From positions 1-41,554 of the forward strand of contig VGIH01000002.1 in assembly GCA_016867965.1 (NCBI GenBank): a stretch of DNA of 41,554 nt. The letters are read 5' to 3'. Both the position numbers and the translations under genes were made by a program. This DNA comes from Betaproteobacteria bacterium. Its GTDB lineage: Bacteria; Pseudomonadota; Gammaproteobacteria; Burkholderiales; Burkholderiaceae. The notes under the pieces are model-generated. The model did not search any database, was not told where the DNA came from, and saw nothing but the letters and a program-made list of their open reading frames with translations. Positions 10,508 through 41,554 of the stretch are shown in pieces; position 1 is the first letter of the stretch; the number at the start of each line of letters is the position of its first letter.

Positions 10508-10834
10508 ATGGTCGATGCAAATCAATCGGGTTGTCTATTTGTTGGTGAAGGGGTCATTTTGAAGGGAAATTTTGCTGTGCCCGATATTGCCTCGGTTTCC
10601 GGTGTTGTGGAAGGCGATTTGTCTGCCAAACAAGTGATTGTTGAAGCTTCTGGTTTGATTCGTGGCAAAGTGGTCGCAGAATCGGTTGATATCCGAGGAG
10701 AAGTTGCCGAGCAGTTAACTGCCTCCCGGTCGCTAATTATTCGCTCTAGCGGTAAAGTCGGCGGTTCTGTTCATTACGCTGAGATTGAGATCGAAAAGGG
10801 TGGATCTTTGCATGGCGATCTGCACCTTATTTAA
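10508..10834 (+). CDS. Bactofilin (polymer-forming cytoskeletal protein) 1
   Basis: Repetitive beta-helix protein: LFVGEGVILKGNF...VEGDLSAKQVIVEASGLIRGKVVAESVDIRGEV. Confidence 0.92.
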   Translation: MVDANQSGCLFVGEGVILKGNFAVPDIASVSGVVEGDLSAKQVIVEASGLIRGKVVAESVDIRGEVAEQLTASRSLIIRSSGKVGGSVHYAEIEIEKGGSLHGDLHLI

Positions 10835-10853
10835 CCTCCCATTAAGGTGATCT

Positions 10854-11300
10854 ATGTTTTCAAAGAAATCCAATGACATTCCAGAAAATTCCTCTGATGA
10901 GTCTCAAAATGCGTATTCAGAGCCAGTAACTGAAGTAGCAGGTGAGCCGGATCAAAGTTATGGCTATGAAAATAACGCCAACCGTGCAAATCCAATTAAG
11001 CCTTCCATTATTAGCGAAGGCTTTGAGTTTGTTGGAACCATTACATCCGAAGGCGTTTTAAATATCTCTGGTGTGATCAAAGGTAAAGTAACGGCCAAAT
11101 CCGTTTTGATTGATTCATCGGGCCTTGTAGAGGGCGAGCTCTTCTCCGATCAGGTAATGGTGAAGGGTAAGGTTTTGGGTGATATTAATTGCCAAGAGCT
11201 CAATATTGGCCCCCTTGCCGAGGTTGATGGCTCTGTGTCATACGACTCGGTCCATATCCAACGTGGCGGTAAGATCAAGGGTCACTTCATTAAGAAGTAA
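10854..11300 (+). CDS. Bactofilin 2
   Basis: Disordered N-terminus, then ISEGFEFVGTITSEGVLNISGVIKGKVTAKSVLIDSSGLVEGELFSDQVMVKGKVLGDI. Confidence 0.92.
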   Translation: MFSKKSNDIPENSSDESQNAYSEPVTEVAGEPDQSYGYENNANRANPIKPSIISEGFEFVGTITSEGVLNISGVIKGKVTAKSVLIDSSGLVEGELFSDQVMVKGKVLGDINCQELNIGPLAEVDGSVSYDSVHIQRGGKIKGHFIKK

Positions 11301-11308
11301 TTGCAATT

Positions 11309-11752
11309 ATGTTTGGCAACAAATCCAAATCAATCAAAACCCTTGGCCAAACCATTGAGTCATTTCAGACCATGGTTGGCGAGGCCACTGAAATCCATGG
11401 GCGTCTGGTTGCCTCTGAGAGCTTGCGAATAGACGGTAAGATCATTGGCAATGTCGAAACCTCGCAAGACGGGGTTGTCAGTATTGCCGTTGGAAAAAAT
11501 GGTTTGGTACAAGGTGATATTTACGCCTATCGCGTCATTATTGCGGGGCGGGTCGAAGGCAATGTCTACTGTACGGAGCGCGTTGAACTTCACAATGGTT
11601 CAGTCGTGCATGGCGATGTGACCTACGGTCAGATTGGTATTGAGCCGGGCGCTCGCTTAAATGGCTTAATGATTTCAAGATCCAAGGACTTGGATACTCA
11701 GGATAGCAGCCAGGTATTTAAGAAAAACTGGGAAAAAATTACTTCTACCTAA
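11309..11752 (+). CDS. Bactofilin 3
   Basis: TMVGEATEIHGRLVASESLRIDGKIIGNVETSQDGVVSIAVGKNGLVQGDIYAYRVIIAGRVEGNVYCTERVELHNGSVVHGDVTY. Confidence 0.93.
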   Translation: MFGNKSKSIKTLGQTIESFQTMVGEATEIHGRLVASESLRIDGKIIGNVETSQDGVVSIAVGKNGLVQGDIYAYRVIIAGRVEGNVYCTERVELHNGSVVHGDVTYGQIGIEPGARLNGLMISRSKDLDTQDSSQVFKKNWEKITST

Positions 11753-11757
11753 GCCCT

Positions 11758-12444
11758 TTAGATGCAGCGGTAGAGTTTTCGTAGGTTTTCGATTTCACCA
11801 AACTTCACATTAGCGGCATCAAATTCGCGGTCAAAGCTCTCGTTTTTGTGGGCATGGGCAAAGATGGCAAGTACGCGTTTCGCTTGCTCATGCCCCATCA
11901 TTGCCGCCAAGCTTAAGTAATAGGCTGCTTTGGAATTGTCTTGAGGAATAAATTCACCCTTGCCGTAGAGTGAACCAATCGTGAAAGCTGACTGACGACT
12001 ACCCGACTCGGCACCCTTGCTGAGTAATTCAAGGCCTTTGAAAATATCCCGAGGAACCCCTTGCTCCATACCTAAACCGAGGGCATAAATATTGCCTAAG
12101 TTGCAATAGGCATCATGGACTTCTTCTTTGATGGCTTTCTCGTAGTACTCGACCGCTACTTTGTAGTTTTGTTTTACTTTACCCAAACCGCGTTCGTGCA
12201 TTAAACCCACGTTATAAAGGGCGTAGCCATTACCGCGGGACGAATGGGAGTTCTGAAACTCATAAAACTGTTCAATCTGTTCGGGGCCTAATTGACCATC
12301 GAAAGTCATCCGAGTCAACATGTAAAGTGCATTTTCATCCAGATCATTTTTGGCAAGATCAAAGAAGATATCAAAGGCAATATCGACCTTGCCTTTATCA
12401 AGATTTAGTTTGCCTAACTCGAATGCGCCTGCGTTATATCCCAT
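11758..12444 (-). CDS. Sel1-repeat (TPR-like) protein
   Basis: Repeated ALYNVGLMHERGLG..., AYCNLGNIYALGLG..., AFTIGSLYGKGEF... units. Confidence 0.85.
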   Translation of the reverse strand: MGYNAGAFELGKLNLDKGKVDIAFDIFFDLAKNDLDENALYMLTRMTFDGQLGPEQIEQFYEFQNSHSSRGNGYALYNVGLMHERGLGKVKQNYKVAVEYYEKAIKEEVHDAYCNLGNIYALGLGMEQGVPRDIFKGLELLSKGAESGSRQSAFTIGSLYGKGEFIPQDNSKAAYYLSLAAMMGHEQAKRVLAIFAHAHKNESFDREFDAANVKFGEIENLRKLYRCI

Positions 12445-12476
12445 CCTAAAATTATATAGGGTTAATCCTAGGCGCG

Positions 12477-12935
12477 TTATTTAGTCGATGCGCAAAATGT
12501 TTCAATAATATGAAAACCAACGGAATCAACGGGTAGGTCAATCCACGGCGGATCGCTCTCTGTCAGATCGATAAAACGACCCTTGCCCATGGGCTCGATG
12601 AAGCCTTGACTGTTGAGTTTTTGGGACTTTTTTTCTTGGCAATCAAACTGAATTAGCGTGATCGCCGAGCGATAGGGTTCGTCATTTGGCCCCACCCGTT
12701 GGGCAAGGTAGTCCTGCAAGACCCATACTTTTAGGAAGGGCCCAATTTTTTCAATGGATTTTTCTTGAATGTAAATCGTGCTGTTAGAAAGCTTGCCAAA
12801 TACCTTCCACGACTCGCTATTTGATTGCGCAAGTGCCGCCATTGAAAGGACCATTAGAAGGATAGCAAGTAATCTGTTAATCACCGGTTGCGAGGAAGAG
12901 AAAAATTTCATAAAGACAGTGCCTAGGAGCACCAT
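12477..12935 (-). CDS. Surface-adhesin E-like secreted protein (copy 1)
   Basis: Signal peptide; WKVFGKLSNSTIYIQEKSIEKIGPFLKVWVLQDYL...ITLIQFDCQEKK; paralogous in layout to 35008-35469. Confidence 0.65.
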   Translation of the reverse strand: MVLLGTVFMKFFSSSQPVINRLLAILLMVLSMAALAQSNSESWKVFGKLSNSTIYIQEKSIEKIGPFLKVWVLQDYLAQRVGPNDEPYRSAITLIQFDCQEKKSQKLNSQGFIEPMGKGRFIDLTESDPPWIDLPVDSVGFHIIETFCASTK

Positions 12936-13690
12936 GAGACATTTTGGAACCAGAATTTGAGTCGGCGCTGTACACGAGCGGTATGAATTCCATTTCGAGT
13001 GCTTTCAAATTCAATGCGATTGCGAGGGGTGGGATCCAAAAGTTGACAGCCAACGCGTATCCGCGAAGATTCTTGGCTCAGACGTGTGTTACGAATAACA
13101 AGATCAAATGGCTCAGAGCGATTTTTTAGGCGTTCAAATGAGCAGCGTGTCCAGATTGTGCCAATTGCCATATCAGTGGCATCAGCACGCAAATCCAACT
13201 GGAGGCCATCCTCCGACATATCAACAATTTGCGCAATCATTTCCTTGCCTTGGGCAAAGTAAATCAATAATTTGAAATCCCGGTCAAAATTACCGGGTCC
13301 CGGTGTTCTAAAGCTTTTGCGTCGTTGAACAATTGCAATTTTTTGGGGAAGATCGCTGGTGTAGGACGAATCGGTCGCGAGGCGGATGTTGTTCAGGCTG
13401 AATTGCACTTTACCGCTATCCACATAAGTTACTAAGATGCGGGTGCCGATGATGGCGGGATGGGATCCGTCTGCCAAAGGCATCACCTTAAAGCGTAATC
13501 CAGTGGGCTCAACGCCTAGAACATTGATGCTAATTCCTTCCCGATCCGTAGCATTTTTGAATAATCCACAGATTCGGTCTTCCTCAAAAATGCGCTCTAG
13601 ATTTTTATAGGTAAACCGAGGGTCTACCCAGTAATTAGGGGCAATCTCTCCAAGTTCGGGGGGGTAAATACGAGCGCTCAATGGTGGCAA
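12923..13690 (-). CDS. YcgR-like PilZ-domain c-di-GMP receptor (copy 1)
   Basis: PilZ motifs RRKSFR and DMSEDG (RxxxR ... DxSxxG); same length and layout as 35494-36243. Confidence 0.85.
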   Translation of the reverse strand: MPPLSARIYPPELGEIAPNYWVDPRFTYKNLERIFEEDRICGLFKNATDREGISINVLGVEPTGLRFKVMPLADGSHPAIIGTRILVTYVDSGKVQFSLNNIRLATDSSYTSDLPQKIAIVQRRKSFRTPGPGNFDRDFKLLIYFAQGKEMIAQIVDMSEDGLQLDLRADATDMAIGTIWTRCSFERLKNRSEPFDLVIRNTRLSQESSRIRVGCQLLDPTPRNRIEFESTRNGIHTARVQRRLKFWFQNVSWCS

Positions 13691-34530: not shown

Positions 34531-34911
34531 TTATTGAGAGCGCGGGTAAATGGTGTTTTTCTGGACGTCTTCGGGATTCCAGTTTTTAGTCATATCGCCG
34601 GTAGGGCCAAACAGAGTTAAGAGTAGCAAAACTCCCAACACAGCAAATGCCACCCCTAGGATGAGAAGTAGATTCTTACTCTTTTTTTCCTCATTAGCCT
34701 TGATGCTGGGTGGTCTGGTAGGGGGATTAAATTTTTCGGGGAAAGCCGATTCGATTGCCGCATTGGCTTTTTTAATATGGGCATAGATTGTCGCATCGTC
34801 TTTTTCTTCCTCGATGGCGCGCATCGCCTCCAGATAGGAACGGTGAGCCGATTCAATGTATTTGGCGGTTTTTAGGTACTGTTCGTGCCTAGAAAAATGT
34901 TCGGGCTTCAT
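34531..34911 (-). CDS. Small single-TM protein with N-terminal helical region, unknown
   Basis: MKPEHFSRHEQYLKTAKYIESAHRSYLEAMRAIEEEKDDATIYAHIKKANAAIES..., then LLLILGVAFAVLGVLLLLTLFG. Confidence 0.65.
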   Translation of the reverse strand: MKPEHFSRHEQYLKTAKYIESAHRSYLEAMRAIEEEKDDATIYAHIKKANAAIESAFPEKFNPPTRPPSIKANEEKKSKNLLLILGVAFAVLGVLLLLTLFGPTGDMTKNWNPEDVQKNTIYPRSQ

Positions 34912-35007: not shown

Positions 35008-35469
35008 ATGTTAACCAAAAACCATACTACCGCGCTGCAATCATTTTCAATGATATCTAATCAAGGAATTTATTGGTTACTTGCTTTGGTATGGCTTTGG
35101 GCTGGGGCTACACAGGCTCAACCATTGATGGCAGATCTAAAACCGATCCTAGATACCAAGACCCATAGTATTTACATCTATAAAAGCTCGGTTAAAAACT
35201 TACCGCCTGATTGGAAAAAGGTCTGGGTATTAACGAACTTTTACCCAGACCCTAACCAGCCCCCGCTTACCGTTTTATCAACGCGTCGCAATGTGCTATT
35301 TGATTGCCGTAAGAATCGGTTCTCTACTTTGGCACTGATTCGTTATGGAGAGCCTAATGCGCTGGGCAAGCCTCTGTTGCAGACCGACTCCGGTTTTGAT
35401 CTCAAAGAGCGCGAGGTCCCCGAGGGGTCGGCAATGGAGATTATTAAAGGCATTGTGTGCGGTTCCTAA
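35008..35469 (+). CDS. Surface-adhesin E-like secreted protein (copy 2)
   Basis: Signal peptide (YWLLALVWLWAGATQAQ); HSIYIYKSSVKNLPPDWKKVWVLTNFY...RRNVLFDCRKNRFSTLAL. Start taken at ATG 35008 rather than 34942. Confidence 0.65.
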   Translation: MLTKNHTTALQSFSMISNQGIYWLLALVWLWAGATQAQPLMADLKPILDTKTHSIYIYKSSVKNLPPDWKKVWVLTNFYPDPNQPPLTVLSTRRNVLFDCRKNRFSTLALIRYGEPNALGKPLLQTDSGFDLKEREVPEGSAMEIIKGIVCGS

Positions 35470-35493
35470 CAGGCTTGTTTAAACTAATGGGTT

Positions 35494-36243
35494 ATGAAAT
35501 TTAATATTTATCCTCCCGAAACCCCGGCTGTCATCGATCCAAATTGGAAAATCGAGGCGCGTTTTATCGCAAAAACGATTGAGCGGGAGGGGGAGCGTCA
35601 GCCCTACGGCGGTTTTTATCTGAGCCCTACCGATCTGGGGGTGCCCATGGAGCTCTTGCGGGTCGATCCGGCCCAAGGTCTCATGTTTAAGCTTCATGGC
35701 GGCAGCGTCGCTGAATTCATCGGTAGCGAGCAAATGGCGGTGTTATGCGGTCCCAACGGCAAGATGCAATTCAAAGCCCAAATAGTCAAAGCCAATGAAA
35801 AAGGCGAGCTAATTGCAGCTATACCCGATGAATTAATTCTGATTCAGCGTCGGAAACAGTTTCGTACATTGGGTCCACCGGATGAGGACTTTAACTTTGT
35901 CTTAAGCCTTGGCGCTGGCCAGGAGTTACTAACTAAAGTGATTGATATCAGTTCTGGGGGTATGCTGCTCGATATTCGTTTAGATGCCACCCAAGTCGAT
36001 ATTGGGCGCTATTGGCATGACTGCTATTTTGAGCGCCTGAAGTCGCGCTCTGGCCCAATCGATTTGCAAATTAAGAATAATCGCCCAGGTGCTCAACTGG
36101 ATCGTATTCGGGTGGGTTGCGAATTGTACGAACCGAACACTCGGGTTTTAAAAGAAATGGAAAGTACGCGCAGTGCGATTGAGAATGCACGCGTTGCTTC
36201 GAAATTAAATCGTTGGTACCTAAACGCATCGTGGTACGACTAA
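35494..36243 (+). CDS. YcgR-like PilZ-domain c-di-GMP receptor (copy 2)
   Basis: PilZ motifs RRKQFR and DISSGG; FERLKSRSGPIDLQIKNNR and DRIRVGCELYEP match copy 1 (FERLKNRSEPFDLVIRNTR, SRIRVGCQLLDP). Confidence 0.87.
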   Translation: MKFNIYPPETPAVIDPNWKIEARFIAKTIEREGERQPYGGFYLSPTDLGVPMELLRVDPAQGLMFKLHGGSVAEFIGSEQMAVLCGPNGKMQFKAQIVKANEKGELIAAIPDELILIQRRKQFRTLGPPDEDFNFVLSLGAGQELLTKVIDISSGGMLLDIRLDATQVDIGRYWHDCYFERLKSRSGPIDLQIKNNRPGAQLDRIRVGCELYEPNTRVLKEMESTRSAIENARVASKLNRWYLNASWYD

Positions 36244-36257
36244 GCGATTGATTGGCG

Positions 36258-37466
36258 ATGATTGAGGTTCGTCAATCCCAGCTTCAATCGCTAAGTCAAC
36301 ATGAAATTGAGCGCTTGGTTTATGTTGACCCCTTAAGCCAATTACCCAATCGACGCTACGTCGAGGAATCCCTTCCCAACTTACTGCAAAAACTCGATGG
36401 AACCGCGCTATTTTGTTTTGTCGACATCGATCGCTTTAAACAAGCCAATCAAATTAGTTATGCATTTGGCGACTCTCTCTTAAGTGCGTTTTCCCAACGG
36501 CTCGCATCACTTCTTAGGGCCCATGACTTGGTATGCCGTTTTGGTGGTGATGAGTTCATCGTCATTCTGTCTGATCTATCTGCTACGGATGCTTCGATGC
36601 AAGGTCAAGCCATCTGTGAGCGACTCTTAGCCCGCATGCAAGAGCCTTATCGGATTGATGGGAGACTCTATTCGGTCACGATTAGTATTGGATGTTGTCC
36701 CATCGACACGCAATCCACCTTTGAGGGACTGATCAAGAGTGCTGATGATGCACTTCGTGCAGCTAAGCGCAGCGGTGGAAATGCGCTGCAGATGGCAGAT
36801 GCGCTCCCGCCCGAGGTCACTAGTGCACATGCTTCCTCGTTCGCGGCAGCGATGCAGATTGATAGTCATCAGAGTGGTGTTGGTGCAGAAATTCTGTTGC
36901 CTGCAGCGTGTATGGATTTGGCGCAATGGTTTCATTACTTAGAGCGCTTACGATCACACTATGTAGCATCGTTCGTTTCGGGTCATACGCCATTTCGTTT
37001 GGCTATTGATGTACCGCAGCGTTTGATTATGCAGGATATGGCATTAATTCAATCGTTTACCCAAATGCTCCACGCGTATGTCGTGAATCATGCGTTACCT
37101 GCTCAAACGATTTGCCTCGAAATCGACGAATCATTTTTGCAGTCAAGCCCGATGGTGTTGGATCATTTTTATCGGGCGATGAGTGAGGCTGAGATTATGC
37201 TGTGTTTAGATCATTATGGACGCCCCCAATCGCGTTTTGGCAGTCAGTGCGAACCATTTTTTTCCTTGGTTAAGCTCTCTGTAAATTTATGCGATCCGGT
37301 TTGTGATGACGCACGCGCCCGATCACAGATTGAGGGGATTGTTACCATGGCTAAGACCATGGGCCAAATTCCCATTGCACAAAATTCCACTCATGATGCT
37401 GCCACTCAATTGGCATTAGCCGAATTGGGTTGCGAATATTTCCAAGGACCGTTTGTACGCATTTAA
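36258..37466 (+). CDS. GGDEF diguanylate cyclase with degenerate EAL-like C-terminus
   Basis: RAHDLVCRFGGDEFIVILSD (I-site RxxD and GGDEF both present); C-terminal half retains FRLAIDVPQRLI, ICLEIDESFL and EYFQGPF but lacks EAL and catalytic acidic motifs. Confidence 0.9.
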   Translation: MIEVRQSQLQSLSQHEIERLVYVDPLSQLPNRRYVEESLPNLLQKLDGTALFCFVDIDRFKQANQISYAFGDSLLSAFSQRLASLLRAHDLVCRFGGDEFIVILSDLSATDASMQGQAICERLLARMQEPYRIDGRLYSVTISIGCCPIDTQSTFEGLIKSADDALRAAKRSGGNALQMADALPPEVTSAHASSFAAAMQIDSHQSGVGAEILLPAACMDLAQWFHYLERLRSHYVASFVSGHTPFRLAIDVPQRLIMQDMALIQSFTQMLHAYVVNHALPAQTICLEIDESFLQSSPMVLDHFYRAMSEAEIMLCLDHYGRPQSRFGSQCEPFFSLVKLSVNLCDPVCDDARARSQIEGIVTMAKTMGQIPIAQNSTHDAATQLALAELGCEYFQGPFVRI

Positions 37467-37576
37467 CACAACCCCCAAGGGACTCGCATCGATTTTCATG
37501 GGCGCAGTCTAGAATAGGGCTATGGAGCATTGAACAGGTATTGGGCATTCGTTAAACTAAAGGTTTTGGTAGCGCT

Positions 37577-38374
37577 ATGTTGGCATTCTTTCAGAATATG
37601 ACCCTTGGAAAATGGATTGTGGTGGTTTGTGCCACCCTGTTTTGCATTGTCGCGATCGTATTCTTGCGGGACTTACTGACGAAGAAAAAAGAAGAGGAAG
37701 AAAAACCGGTTTCGCCTGAGGAGAGTGAAAAGGTCAAACTCGAACCCTTGTTGGTGGGCAGTCTACAAAAGACCCATCAATTAGAGGATGTAATTAATCA
37801 AAAAATAAGCAATATGAAGTTGGATTTGATGGCCGAGCGTCTTCGCATCACTTCCACTGCCGAGGTCTTAAAAAATTTAGCCATTGAGAAGCGTTTTCCT
37901 GAGACCCTCTATCAAATTTATTACGAAACCCGTGCCTTTCCTAAAAAATCACCCGAGGCGCAAGAAACGGATTTGGAATGGCATCGACAGGCGGGTATTA
38001 CTGATTTATCGGTCGAGCCAATTGTTGCTGAAGACGGTATTTTGATTCGCTTTACGCTCCAAGACCATCAGTACTCTCTGAGTGCAATCAATTATCGATT
38101 TGCAAGAACGTATTTTGTTGAACTGATCTTGCGAGATCCCGAGGATGTGAAATTATTAGTTGCGCGGGTCAAGGCCAATGAGTCTACAGGTCGAGAGATT
38201 TTAGAGAAAGCCGTCATTGAAATGCGCTCAGGCGACTGGATTGATGACATTGCGAGTTGCCGACTCTTAATGGATAAGCGTAAAACGGAAGTTCAACTCT
38301 TGGCAGAGCATCGTGAGGTTGAGACCTTAAAAAGCCGATTTATTTTGAATCAAGCGATTCGAAAAAAACAATAA
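37577..38374 (+). CDS. Single-TM protein with charged/coiled-coil region, unknown
   Basis: TM WIVVVCATLFCIVAIVFLRDLL, then KKKEEEEKPVSPEESEK and a globular region; within the downstream gene run. Confidence 0.7.
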   Translation: MLAFFQNMTLGKWIVVVCATLFCIVAIVFLRDLLTKKKEEEEKPVSPEESEKVKLEPLLVGSLQKTHQLEDVINQKISNMKLDLMAERLRITSTAEVLKNLAIEKRFPETLYQIYYETRAFPKKSPEAQETDLEWHRQAGITDLSVEPIVAEDGILIRFTLQDHQYSLSAINYRFARTYFVELILRDPEDVKLLVARVKANESTGREILEKAVIEMRSGDWIDDIASCRLLMDKRKTEVQLLAEHREVETLKSRFILNQAIRKKQ

Positions 38375-38390
38375 AGACTAGTCACGACGT

Positions 38391-39464
38391 ATGTCCACCG
38401 AAGTGAAAAAAACAGTGCATGGTTGGTTCTTGGGCTTTGCCAGCCTTCTCTTAGCCATTGCGCTGGGGGTTTTATTCAGTGCCGCTAGCGATCTAATCGA
38501 TGCCTCGATGCAATTTAATGCCTTAACTGTGAAGCAACCCCGCTTTGCTGATTTTGTTGGCCCGCAGCGCTATGACATGCTGATGAAAAAAGCGACCAAA
38601 CGTCCGGCTGCTAACCCTGCCCAAAAAGCAAATACCGAGGCAGCGAAGGTTCCAATCGATCCCGCGAAGGCTCCCCCCGAACCCCCAAAGGCCGCTAATC
38701 CACCTGCCGATCAGCCACTTGCATTGGACGCTGCGATTCAGAGAACCTTTGAGTTTTTCTCGGAGTATGAAAATAAGTTATCGAAGCCCAGCTTGCAGAT
38801 CATTAAGCCCGTGGTTGCTGCGATCGAGACCGGATCGCCGGCCGAGCAATCGGGGATCAAGGTGGGCGACACGATTTTGACCGTGGGCGGCACTAAGCTG
38901 GAATCCGTGATGGGGTTTTATCTAGCGCTTAGCGATAAGCCAAGCCCTGAGCTCTCTTTGCGAGTGTTGCGGGATAAGCGGGAGTTAAACATTATTTTGC
39001 GCAGCCCCAAGGGAATTATTTTTCATGGCAACAACACAGGAATTAAGTTTGCCCTCCCAGAGGATGTTTTCTACATTACTGAGCAAGATGCCAAGCGGCT
39101 GGCTGAGCAATACAAAAATGATTTTATGAGCACCATTCCCGCCGATTGGCGCACTGATGCAGCGAACAATTTAATGCAAATGGCGCGTCAGCTCAGCAAT
39201 TTGGGTACGGAAATGGTTGACCTCAATAATGCCAAACCAATTCGGATTAAATCAAGTGATTTGATTGCATGGCAACATAAGCGCTGGACAGAAAGTCTGG
39301 AGGATTATTTCAGTCAGCGCCGCTTGCTGGAAAACAAGGTCATTGAGATTTTGGGCAGCTTTGGGGATGCCATTAGCGGTCTGGTAGCTGCCTTATTGTT
39401 CTTTGGGATTGCTCTGTTATCGTTCTTATATAACCGCTCGTTTAGGCATAAAAGTTCAGCATGA
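38391..39464 (+). CDS. PDZ-domain membrane protein with N- and C-terminal TM segments
   Basis: N-terminal TM WFLGFASLLLAIALGVLFSAA; PDZ VVAAIETGSPAEQSGIKVGDTILTVGGTKLESVMGFYLALS; C-terminal TM ISGLVAALLFFGIALLSFLY; no protease motif seen. Confidence 0.8.
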   Translation: MSTEVKKTVHGWFLGFASLLLAIALGVLFSAASDLIDASMQFNALTVKQPRFADFVGPQRYDMLMKKATKRPAANPAQKANTEAAKVPIDPAKAPPEPPKAANPPADQPLALDAAIQRTFEFFSEYENKLSKPSLQIIKPVVAAIETGSPAEQSGIKVGDTILTVGGTKLESVMGFYLALSDKPSPELSLRVLRDKRELNIILRSPKGIIFHGNNTGIKFALPEDVFYITEQDAKRLAEQYKNDFMSTIPADWRTDAANNLMQMARQLSNLGTEMVDLNNAKPIRIKSSDLIAWQHKRWTESLEDYFSQRRLLENKVIEILGSFGDAISGLVAALLFFGIALLSFLYNRSFRHKSSA

Positions 39465-39865
39465 ATAGCCCTCTTATAGAGTATTGGCTTGGCATCGAGA
39501 TCAATGGTCAGCATTGTGCGATCTCTGCACGTCAGATTTATGCTACGTTCATTTGTAAGCAGACTCCGCAGTCAGCCGATGCCCTACGCTTGGATGGCAT
39601 CGTGGTGCATGAGGGGGAGCCCGTTTACCTTAAGCCCCATCATGCCCTCTTAAAACCCATGCAAAGTTCAATCAATCTCCAGGATTGGGGGCGGGCCTGC
39701 GAAGATCCCAGTTGGGTGATTGTGTTAAAAGATCGCGGCCGAATGGGGCCTGCCTTTAGGGTGCGCAAAATTACTGGACCATTTCATGGGGGCGCGAGCG
39801 AGTCAGGTAACTCGGTGCACCATGGTGGCTTCGATTACTCTGTTGTCAAAGTACTGACAAATTAA
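39461..39865 (+). CDS. Possible CheW-like adaptor protein
   Basis: 134 aa; alternating beta-strand pattern YWLGIEINGQHCAISARQIYATF...LDGIVVHEGEPVYLKPHHALLKP...SWVIVLKDRGRMGPAFRVRKITGPF; 4-nt overlap with the PDZ gene. Confidence 0.45.
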   Translation: MNSPLIEYWLGIEINGQHCAISARQIYATFICKQTPQSADALRLDGIVVHEGEPVYLKPHHALLKPMQSSINLQDWGRACEDPSWVIVLKDRGRMGPAFRVRKITGPFHGGASESGNSVHHGGFDYSVVKVLTN

Positions 39866-39881
39866 ATGCGTGGATAGTGAA

Positions 39882-41554
39882 ATGGAAAATGCCAATACCC
39901 AGGACAAACCCAATCTCGATGAGGGTGTAAAGGACGCGGTCTTTGTTGCCCCCAAAGCTTCGGGCTCATGGTCCGTTCTTAGCTATGTCCTGTTAATTTT
40001 GTCGGTCCTCACGGGGATGGCTGCTTTTCTTGCAGAGCGCCATTGGGTTAATGAGGATCGTTATGCCAACGCAATCTCAGCAGAACAAGCAATTGCGGTG
40101 AAATTGCCATTTGTATTAAAGGATCTTGCCGATAAAATCAACCGACCGCATCCGTTTGAAACGGCTTGGTTTGCCAGCCTTAAGAAATCCAACAAAGACC
40201 TTAAACAGTTTTTGGATCAAGTGCAGATTGTGAGTAAGCCGAAAGAGGCTACCAAAGACCCAGAGGCTCCTCCTGAGCCAAAACCAAGTTCATTTTTTGG
40301 CGCACTCGATGGTTTAGCCCACTCCATTTTTTCTGCGCTGGATGAGTCGGTCAAGCCATCGGTTAAAGAGCCGGTGGTCACAGTACCCGATCCTCAAGCC
40401 ATCCCGGTTCTTAACAATGCGAGTGATGTGATTGCGGTTGCTGCGATCGTCGATACCGCAGTGACCACGCTCACTAATCAAGAGTTGGAGCTCAACAACA
40501 TTAAAGTGTTGGCCCAAGCCTTAGCGCCGTTTATGGCTCCTGCTGGCATCCTCGATCTTACAAAAACCCCAGAGGATTCACCGCTCTACAAGATGGCCGT
40601 TAGTGCCGATGCCTTTATCAAAGCCAGTAAAGCGTGGCAGATCAACGTAACCGACATCGCTAGCCTCACTGAGCTTAATAAAAGTTTTGCCGAGGCGATT
40701 GACCAGCGCAATTTATTGGATGCCAGTGTGCAAAAGCCAGCGCCTGGTGCCAAACCAAACCCCAAGGTCATTGAACTGACGACTAAATTAAGGGCAAGCT
40801 TGTGGCAGACCAAGGCTCAGCCTACACTGCGCGCCTTGCAAGAGTTCAATAAGCAATTGATTGCGATTCGCACAGTAACCGCAGATCCACGCAGTATCCG
40901 CTTGGCCGCTCAAAAGAGTGGTCTGCAACCCACGGCGCTCGAGGATAACTACGGCAACTTGCCATCGATTTTGTTGCTTATTAGCGTCCTGTCATCCTTC
41001 TTGGCACTCATTAGTGCTGCTGTAGTGAGCCGTTTAAGCAAGACCCTGGTGTATACCGACCGTACTCCAAAATCATCGATTGCGCAGCGGTGGTCCAAAA
41101 ATCAATCGGACCGGAAAGCCGAGCGCATTTCTTCCAAACAGCAGATTGCGTTTAAGGATGATCTCCATAAAGAATTGGATCGCCTTAGTGAACAATTTCA
41201 TGGGGTTAATGAACTCGGAATTAAACTGCGCCAATCGATCACGATGCTGAGTCGGCAAGCTGGCGAAGTCGGGCATCCACCAGAACTTGAAAATGATTCA
41301 TCAGCCATTGAGGTCATTGCAGTACCCGAGCAAATTCAAGAAGCCTTTGATGCACTCAAGCAACAAGGCATTCGTCTATACCTCGCGATTTTGGATAACC
41401 ATTCTGGCAAACAACTAGCCGCCGAAACCGAAAAATTGAATGGCTTAATTGAGGAAGTGGAGTCAACCGTGACCCAGTCTGAGGGCTTGGTCAAACAGTT
41501 GTATGACGAGCTGGATTTGCGAATGCGCAAAACACAGGCGGCGATTTCAAGTTC
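39882..41554 (+). CDS. Large two-TM protein with periplasmic and cytoplasmic coiled-coil regions (3' end outside window), possibly MCP-like
   Basis: Absent from the ORF track because it has no stop in window. MENANTQDKPNLDEGVKDAVFVAPKASGSWSVLSYVLLILSVLTGMAAFLAERHWVNEDRY...; second TM NLPSILLLISVLSSFLALISAAVVSRL; helical tail to the window edge. Confidence 0.8.
   Translation, partial: MENANTQDKPNLDEGVKDAVFVAPKASGSWSVLSYVLLILSVLTGMAAFLAERHWVNEDRYANAISAEQAIAVKLPFVLKDLADKINRPHPFETAWFASLKKSNKDLKQFLDQVQIVSKPKEATKDPEAPPEPKPSSFFGALDGLAHSIFSALDESVKPSVKEPVVTVPDPQAIPVLNNASDVIAVAAIVDTAVTTLTNQELELNNIKVLAQALAPFMAPAGILDLTKTPEDSPLYKMAVSADAFIKASKAWQINVTDIASLTELNKSFAEAIDQRNLLDASVQKPAPGAKPNPKVIELTTKLRASLWQTKAQPTLRALQEFNKQLIAIRTVTADPRSIRLAAQKSGLQPTALEDNYGNLPSILLLISVLSSFLALISAAVVSRLSKTLVYTDRTPKSSIAQRWSKNQSDRKAERISSKQQIAFKDDLHKELDRLSEQFHGVNELGIKLRQSITMLSRQAGEVGHPPELENDSSAIEVIAVPEQIQEAFDALKQQGIRLYLAILDNHSGKQLAAETEKLNGLIEEVESTVTQSEGLVKQLYDELDLRMRKTQAAISS

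Follow-up and report, generated by a model that had tools for sequence, protein, structure and literature searches.

The window, the whole stretch of DNA analysed here, is the whole of contig C2 (41,554 bp). The draft genome to which this contig belongs measures 1.98 Mb, and we read it as that of a freshwater Polynucleobacter because the close relatives fetched with its TM protein (see below) are Polynucleobacter records. Seven open reading frames occupy its last part, all on the + strand, and the coordinates, starts and gaps given for them in an earlier note were borne out: a small Adhesin_E-like protein (AdhE, 35008–35469), a PilZ protein (35494–36243), a GGDEF protein with a degenerate EAL domain (36258–37466), a TM protein of no known family (37577–38374), a PDZ protein (38391–39464), a soluble CheW-like protein (39461–39865, overlapping the PDZ gene by 4 nt) and a large protein with receptor-like topology, here termed Big, which runs from 39882 and is still open where the contig ends at 41554. 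The starts at 35008, 36258 and 39882 are in-frame ATGs, and longer upstream TTG/GTG starts are also present. No consistent sigma-54 promoter was found upstream of the operon, sigma-70-type sites there were no more numerous than in shuffles, and the RNA elements of the window are two tRNAs only. Divergent from the operon (34531–34911, − strand) is a small protein with a C-terminal hydrophobic stretch and no known family, which is conserved near the operon in several Polynucleobacter loci.

Pfam searches agreed with the Adhesin_E, PilZ, GGDEF and PDZ labels of the earlier note. AdhE (PF16747, E 9e-12) has a hydrophobic, signal-peptide-like N-terminus and is the first operon gene in Polynucleobacter, with orthologues at the same place in 12 other loci; it is absent from more distant versions. 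The PilZ protein (PF07238, 1.5e-4) has both c-di-GMP-binding motifs intact (RRKQFR for RxxxR and DISSGG for D/NxSxxG) and a paralogue in the window that is 41% identical (12923–13690, − strand). In the region 10508–13690, three bactofilin-like ORFs adjoin a set of Sel1, AdhE and PilZ genes on the opposite strand. One continuous cluster in genome G010 (L026) unites bactofilins with rpoN, the operon, and a second PilZ accompanied by two Sel1 genes; the window therefore carries a rearranged version. The GGDEF protein retains its GGDEF motif and RxxD inhibition site (PF00990, 1.4e-35), although that label was incomplete, as a degenerate EAL domain lacking its N-terminal part is also present (PF00563, 1.5e-11, matching from profile position 44). 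Its gene was found only in the window genome and its nearest relative UBA962 (L064), and the two proteins are 46% identical as against 73–89% for their neighbours, so the GGDEF gene reads as a lineage-specific insertion, a late arrival that is diverging faster than the genes around it. The 37466–37577 gap comes after this gene, and relatives without it have PilZ directly before the TM gene.

The TM and PDZ proteins are membrane proteins without a named family. The former is predicted to have one N-terminal TM helix, a long coiled coil, an antiparallel beta sheet and a C-terminal helix (AF2 pLDDT 84.5); it has no Pfam family above cut-off and no PDB sequence match, and matches to a START/helix-grip-like fold were weak (best E 0.026) and were not relied on. 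The latter has a TM helix at residues ~13–31, a loop with the PDZ domain (PF13180, PDZ_2, 1.5e-7) and a C-terminal TM helix at ~328–346.

The last ORF is cut by the contig end, and the identity of the operon therefore lay outside the window. Big resumes on C110, another contig of the window genome; this contig begins with codons matching the Big C-terminus and then carries a gene for a protein we call X, followed by flgA and flgM; alignment with L064 places the two contigs ~8 codons apart, and they were left unjoined. The earlier note had advised looking beyond 41554 for CheA/CheY or secretion genes, and what lies there is a CheA-like protein without kinase boxes (X, described below), then flgA and flgM. 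No flgN was seen on C110, where flgA and flgM follow X; directly after flgM stands a TPR protein of 855+ aa (L177:2908-5472), the place of flgN in relatives.

In complete Polynucleobacter relatives the order is AdhE-PilZ-TM-PDZ-CheW-like-Big-X-flgA-flgM-flgN, and MWH-UniPo relatives keep it from TM onward. The genes are contiguous in G010, where FlgA (3.5e-23), FlgM (6.8e-6) and FlgN (2.1e-7) are matched by Pfam. CheW-like-Big-X-flgA-flgM-flgN forms the conserved core, which TM and PDZ usually precede; G018 and G036 have this core without TM and PDZ, and the minimal unit is therefore three chemosensory-derived proteins plus flgAMN. Conservation of gene order in >20 loci, rather than the gap lengths, excludes chance as an explanation of the layout, and the single, tightly packed operon proposed earlier is supported and runs on into X, flgA and flgM. 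In most Polynucleobacter loci a divergent rpoN lies upstream of the operon, and close by is a large flagellar cluster with FliA-, FlhG- and FlhF-like genes (by sequence), a two-component sigma-54 activator and kinase, FliF-FliG-FliI-FliL-FliM-FliN and others. Given the Big-X-flgA-flgM continuation in the same genome and the recurrence of the order in relatives, gene content identifies the seven genes as the front of a flagellar operon (its 5′ half), which reads AdhE-PilZ-[GGDEF]-TM-PDZ-CheW-like-Big-X-flgA-flgM.

The earlier note had placed signal synthesis (GGDEF) and signal reception (PilZ) at the centre of the operon, a view that did not survive this comparison. That the locus is a c-di-GMP signalling operon with unrelated membrane proteins would suit the intact GGDEF, RxxD and PilZ motifs, but the GGDEF gene is confined to two genomes, PilZ (like AdhE) is missing from the MWH-UniPo, 30F-ANTBAC and G018/G036 versions, the core occurs without GGDEF or PilZ and the conserved partners are flagellar genes; we regard this explanation as very improbable.

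A survey of 399 genomes from the order turned up the TM protein in seven: the window genome, two further Polynucleobacter, and four members of a single second family, to which LSUCC0115 (MWH-UniPo clade) belongs. X was found in the same seven. In 369 further genomes sampled at class level X was seen in none besides the window genome, so that neither sample holds an X outside Polynucleobacter and the MWH-UniPo family. Homologues outside the genus thus exist, but the literature searched yielded no described pathway that contains this operon, and the remark in the earlier note that the combination is not a standard operon holds. LSUCC0115 has been reported to have flagellar genes (PMC6952679); three flagellin-domain matches in this genome lie in open frames of 910–1400 aa (G053:C2:593347-599922), which are possibly giant flagellins. 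A record titled Thermoflexus hugenholtzii (L084) carries Polynucleobacter-type adhE-PilZ-TM genes and is probably a mislabelled or contaminated MAG.

X was modelled with AF2 on the 30F-ANTBAC sequence (L077) using an alignment of 15 orthologues (pLDDT 78.7), and all eight PDB matches of this model at E ≤ 0.001 in Foldseek were CheA, the best being CheA in the E. coli core signalling unit (8c5v_A, E 9.4e-9). The N-terminal bundle matches the CheA P1 domain (1i5n, TMt 0.69) and the C-terminal part is matched by CheW structures; whole-chain TM-scores against CheA are low (0.2–0.4), as expected of a flexible multidomain model. Profile comparison by hhalign gave P 5.7e-7 (probability 92%) against ChpA-type CheA, compared with ≤ ~3% for unrelated family pairs, and P 0.022 against the classical CheA set alone; one X member has an Hpt domain match (E 0.0038), and the X profile found no chemotaxis protein among PDB sequences by sequence alone. 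X is thus predicted to have CheA architecture over its full length (a P1-P3-P4-P5 fold), with P1/HPt-like, P3-like, P4-remnant and CheW-like P5 parts, the structural argument resting on one predicted model. It differs from CheA in lacking the ATP-binding boxes and the HPt motif H..K[GA] and in being carried in an flgAMN operon. By pattern search the N, G1 and G2 boxes were present in 0/21 X sequences, compared with 15/15, 15/15 and 11/15 CheA controls, and H..K[GA] likewise in 0/21, a motif that just 4 of the 15 partial-length controls show. In UBA962 (L064:6148-7655) and P. hallstattensis (L071:14321-15788) X appears as two separate ORFs, which may reflect either a frameshift or a sequencing error.

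As the boxes and the motif are absent, X is CheA-shaped but most likely not a kinase. That it is instead an active, highly divergent kinase phosphorylating some CheY could draw on the CheA fold along its whole length and on a His that some lineages, that of the window genome included, retain at the HPt site; however, the His is Tyr in other lineages, the Lys of the motif is replaced by Asp, none of the 21 X sequences has the boxes and the FliM of genomes with the operon lacks the CheY peptide (see below), which together make an active kinase exceedingly improbable.

PF01584 (CheW) is matched by 12 of the 23 orthologues of the CheW-like protein (best 4e-5), the window copy not among them, and the G010 copy scores 20.6 bits against a cut-off of 23.5; profile-profile comparison with CheW gave P 0.0018 (probability 15%), and the profile found no chemotaxis protein among PDB sequences by sequence alone. 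The tentative label of the earlier note is thus supported at the level of the family, not on the window copy alone. Half of the orthologues resemble the CheW adaptor to this extent, but the protein is short and sub-threshold, and the genome offers it neither a canonical MCP nor a canonical CheA as partner. Big, rightly described earlier as a large two-TM protein, is laid out as TM helix, loop of ~320 aa, TM helix and cytoplasmic helical part, and its orthologues (521–817 aa) all lack an MCP signalling domain. It was therefore rejected as an MCP homologue, its hhalign match to the PilJ N-terminus (P 4.8e-4) being weak, and is receptor-like in layout, a candidate receptor only. The succession of CheW-like, two-TM receptor-like and CheA-like genes recalls Pil-Chp (PilI-PilJ-ChpA), whereas the present operon adjoins flagellar rather than pilus genes and contains no CheY-, CheB- or CheR-type genes. 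FimL of Pseudomonas, a ChpA-related protein with Gln at the phosphoacceptor sites and polar localization (PMC3019171), offers a precedent for the re-use of a ChpA-related, phosphotransfer-incapable polar protein.

Lost motifs in X, the widely varying lengths of Big and X, and the apparent splitting of X at two loci might suggest relics: remnants of a chemotaxis gene set that have been decaying since these small-genome plankton gave up chemotaxis. However, dN/dS was 0.07–0.13 for the computable TM, PDZ, CheW-like, Big and X pairs (0.07 for the TM protein), similar to flgA (0.07–0.13) and flgM (0.06–0.10), although saturation of synonymous sites affects several window-UBA962 pairs, so that these values lean on the L027-L028 pair. 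These ratios indicate purifying selection on the operon genes and argue against decay; moreover, gene order is kept across two families and the X frame is intact in every other locus covering X. Decay is already disfavoured, and we consider it very unlikely.

Carriers of the operon were defined by the presence of TM or X, or of the reduced CheW-like-Big-X version (G018, G036). Flagellin was found in 9 of 10 carriers tested, the exception (G025) being a draft genome with FliM. A CheW-domain protein over the Pfam cut-off was absent from 14 of 15 carriers and MCPs (PF00015) from 10 of 10. In the remaining carrier, G402, a chemosensory cluster is present whose last gene encodes a fusion of response regulator and adenylate cyclase, and no motor output from it is evident; absence of CheW-domain proteins was accordingly rejected as a universal property of carriers. 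What carriers lack is the canonical set of chemotaxis genes directed at the motor. This cluster (L179:8304-16084) reads MCP-CheA (two CheW domains)-CheW-CheB-CheR-like gene-response regulator/adenylate cyclase and adjoins cyclic-nucleotide-binding and phosphodiesterase-like genes; it is possibly a cAMP-output chemosensory system in Polynucleobacter, and similar CheW/MCP matches occur in G001, G008, G015 and G022.

The N-terminus of FliM, the docking site of CheY-phosphate in E. coli, reads LSQ(D/E)E(V/I)DALL, or differs little from this, in 21/21 non-carriers, whereas this CheY-binding peptide is missing in 14/14 carriers read, including the window genome. In a FliM tree the 13 complete carrier sequences group as a single clade, with full support and a long stem; independent losses were rejected on this ground, the loss counting as one event, not 14, and the tree indicates that motif loss and operon belong to one evolutionary event. 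Loss of chemotaxis genes does not require the operon, because G007, G014 and G029 are flagellated Polynucleobacter without the operon and without CheW genes. FliM in these genomes (L098-L102, L148, L155, L156) has a degraded CheY-peptide (LTEGELDELL, LSQNEMDTLL) and MCPs were absent from G014 and G029, with a marginal match in G007; they apparently represent another flagellar type in Polynucleobacter. P. asymbioticus has been reported as non-motile and without chemotaxis (PMC3308952). Flagellar function in culture is uncertain, as P. duraquae has a full flagellar set and yet is barely motile, motility being rarely seen (PMC5018217).

There is good support for reading the locus as a flagellar operon with a chemosensory-derived module that lacks a kinase. 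We consider it fairly probable (roughly 0.6) that its products form a membrane complex that derives from a chemosensory system, no longer uses phosphorylation and serves a flagellum that is itself derived; how the chemosensory-derived proteins are wired to the motor we infer. Big, the CheW-like protein and X would make up a membrane patch derived from a chemosensory array and anchored with the TM and PDZ proteins, probably near the pole given the FlhF/FlhG-type genes in the cluster. The patch would act on the motor or its assembly by direct contact, with no phosphotransfer to CheY, and in Polynucleobacter PilZ (in the window genome also the GGDEF protein) would add a c-di-GMP input. A PilZ protein with both binding motifs in a flagellar operon is reminiscent of the YcgR-type flagellar brake, but its match to the YcgR model NF047947 is faint and far below cut-off (E 2e-5, 24 bits against 400), and a brake role is hypothetical.

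With neither kinase boxes nor a CheY docking peptide, both direct control of the motor and an assembly scaffold would fit. Under the former, which we put forward tentatively, the CheA-, CheW- and receptor-like proteins might touch the motor directly, for instance at the new FliM N-terminus, and in this way convey the periplasmic or c-di-GMP state to it, replacing the CheA-CheY relay. Under the latter, a possible though doubtful reading, chemosensory-derived proteins with TM and PDZ would be an accessory motor or basal-body scaffold that carries no signal and serves, for example, in polar placement, stator support or a P-ring/export checkpoint with FlgA, FlgM and FlgN; the module always adjoins flgA-flgM-flgN, X has no catalytic residues, three of the proteins are membrane proteins (one with a PDZ domain), no CheY-type output was found, and the FliM N-terminus has been reworked. 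However, Big keeps a large, receptor-like loop between its two TM helices, and the intact c-di-GMP motifs of PilZ, where Polynucleobacter versions have it, suggest regulation, for which reasons the data lean slightly towards control.

Chemotaxis is usually regarded as all-or-nothing, either wholly kept or wholly lost. In these plankton, which are abundant in fresh water, the kinase, the receptors and the CheY docking peptide of the motor seem to have been lost, and CheA-, CheW- and receptor-like proteins to have been retained within a flagellar operon, where selection acts on them. If this is confirmed, a non-enzymatic role of chemosensory proteins becomes directly testable, two unnamed membrane families (TM and PDZ) join flagellar biology, and the operon suggests how swimmers without canonical chemotaxis genes might control their flagellum.
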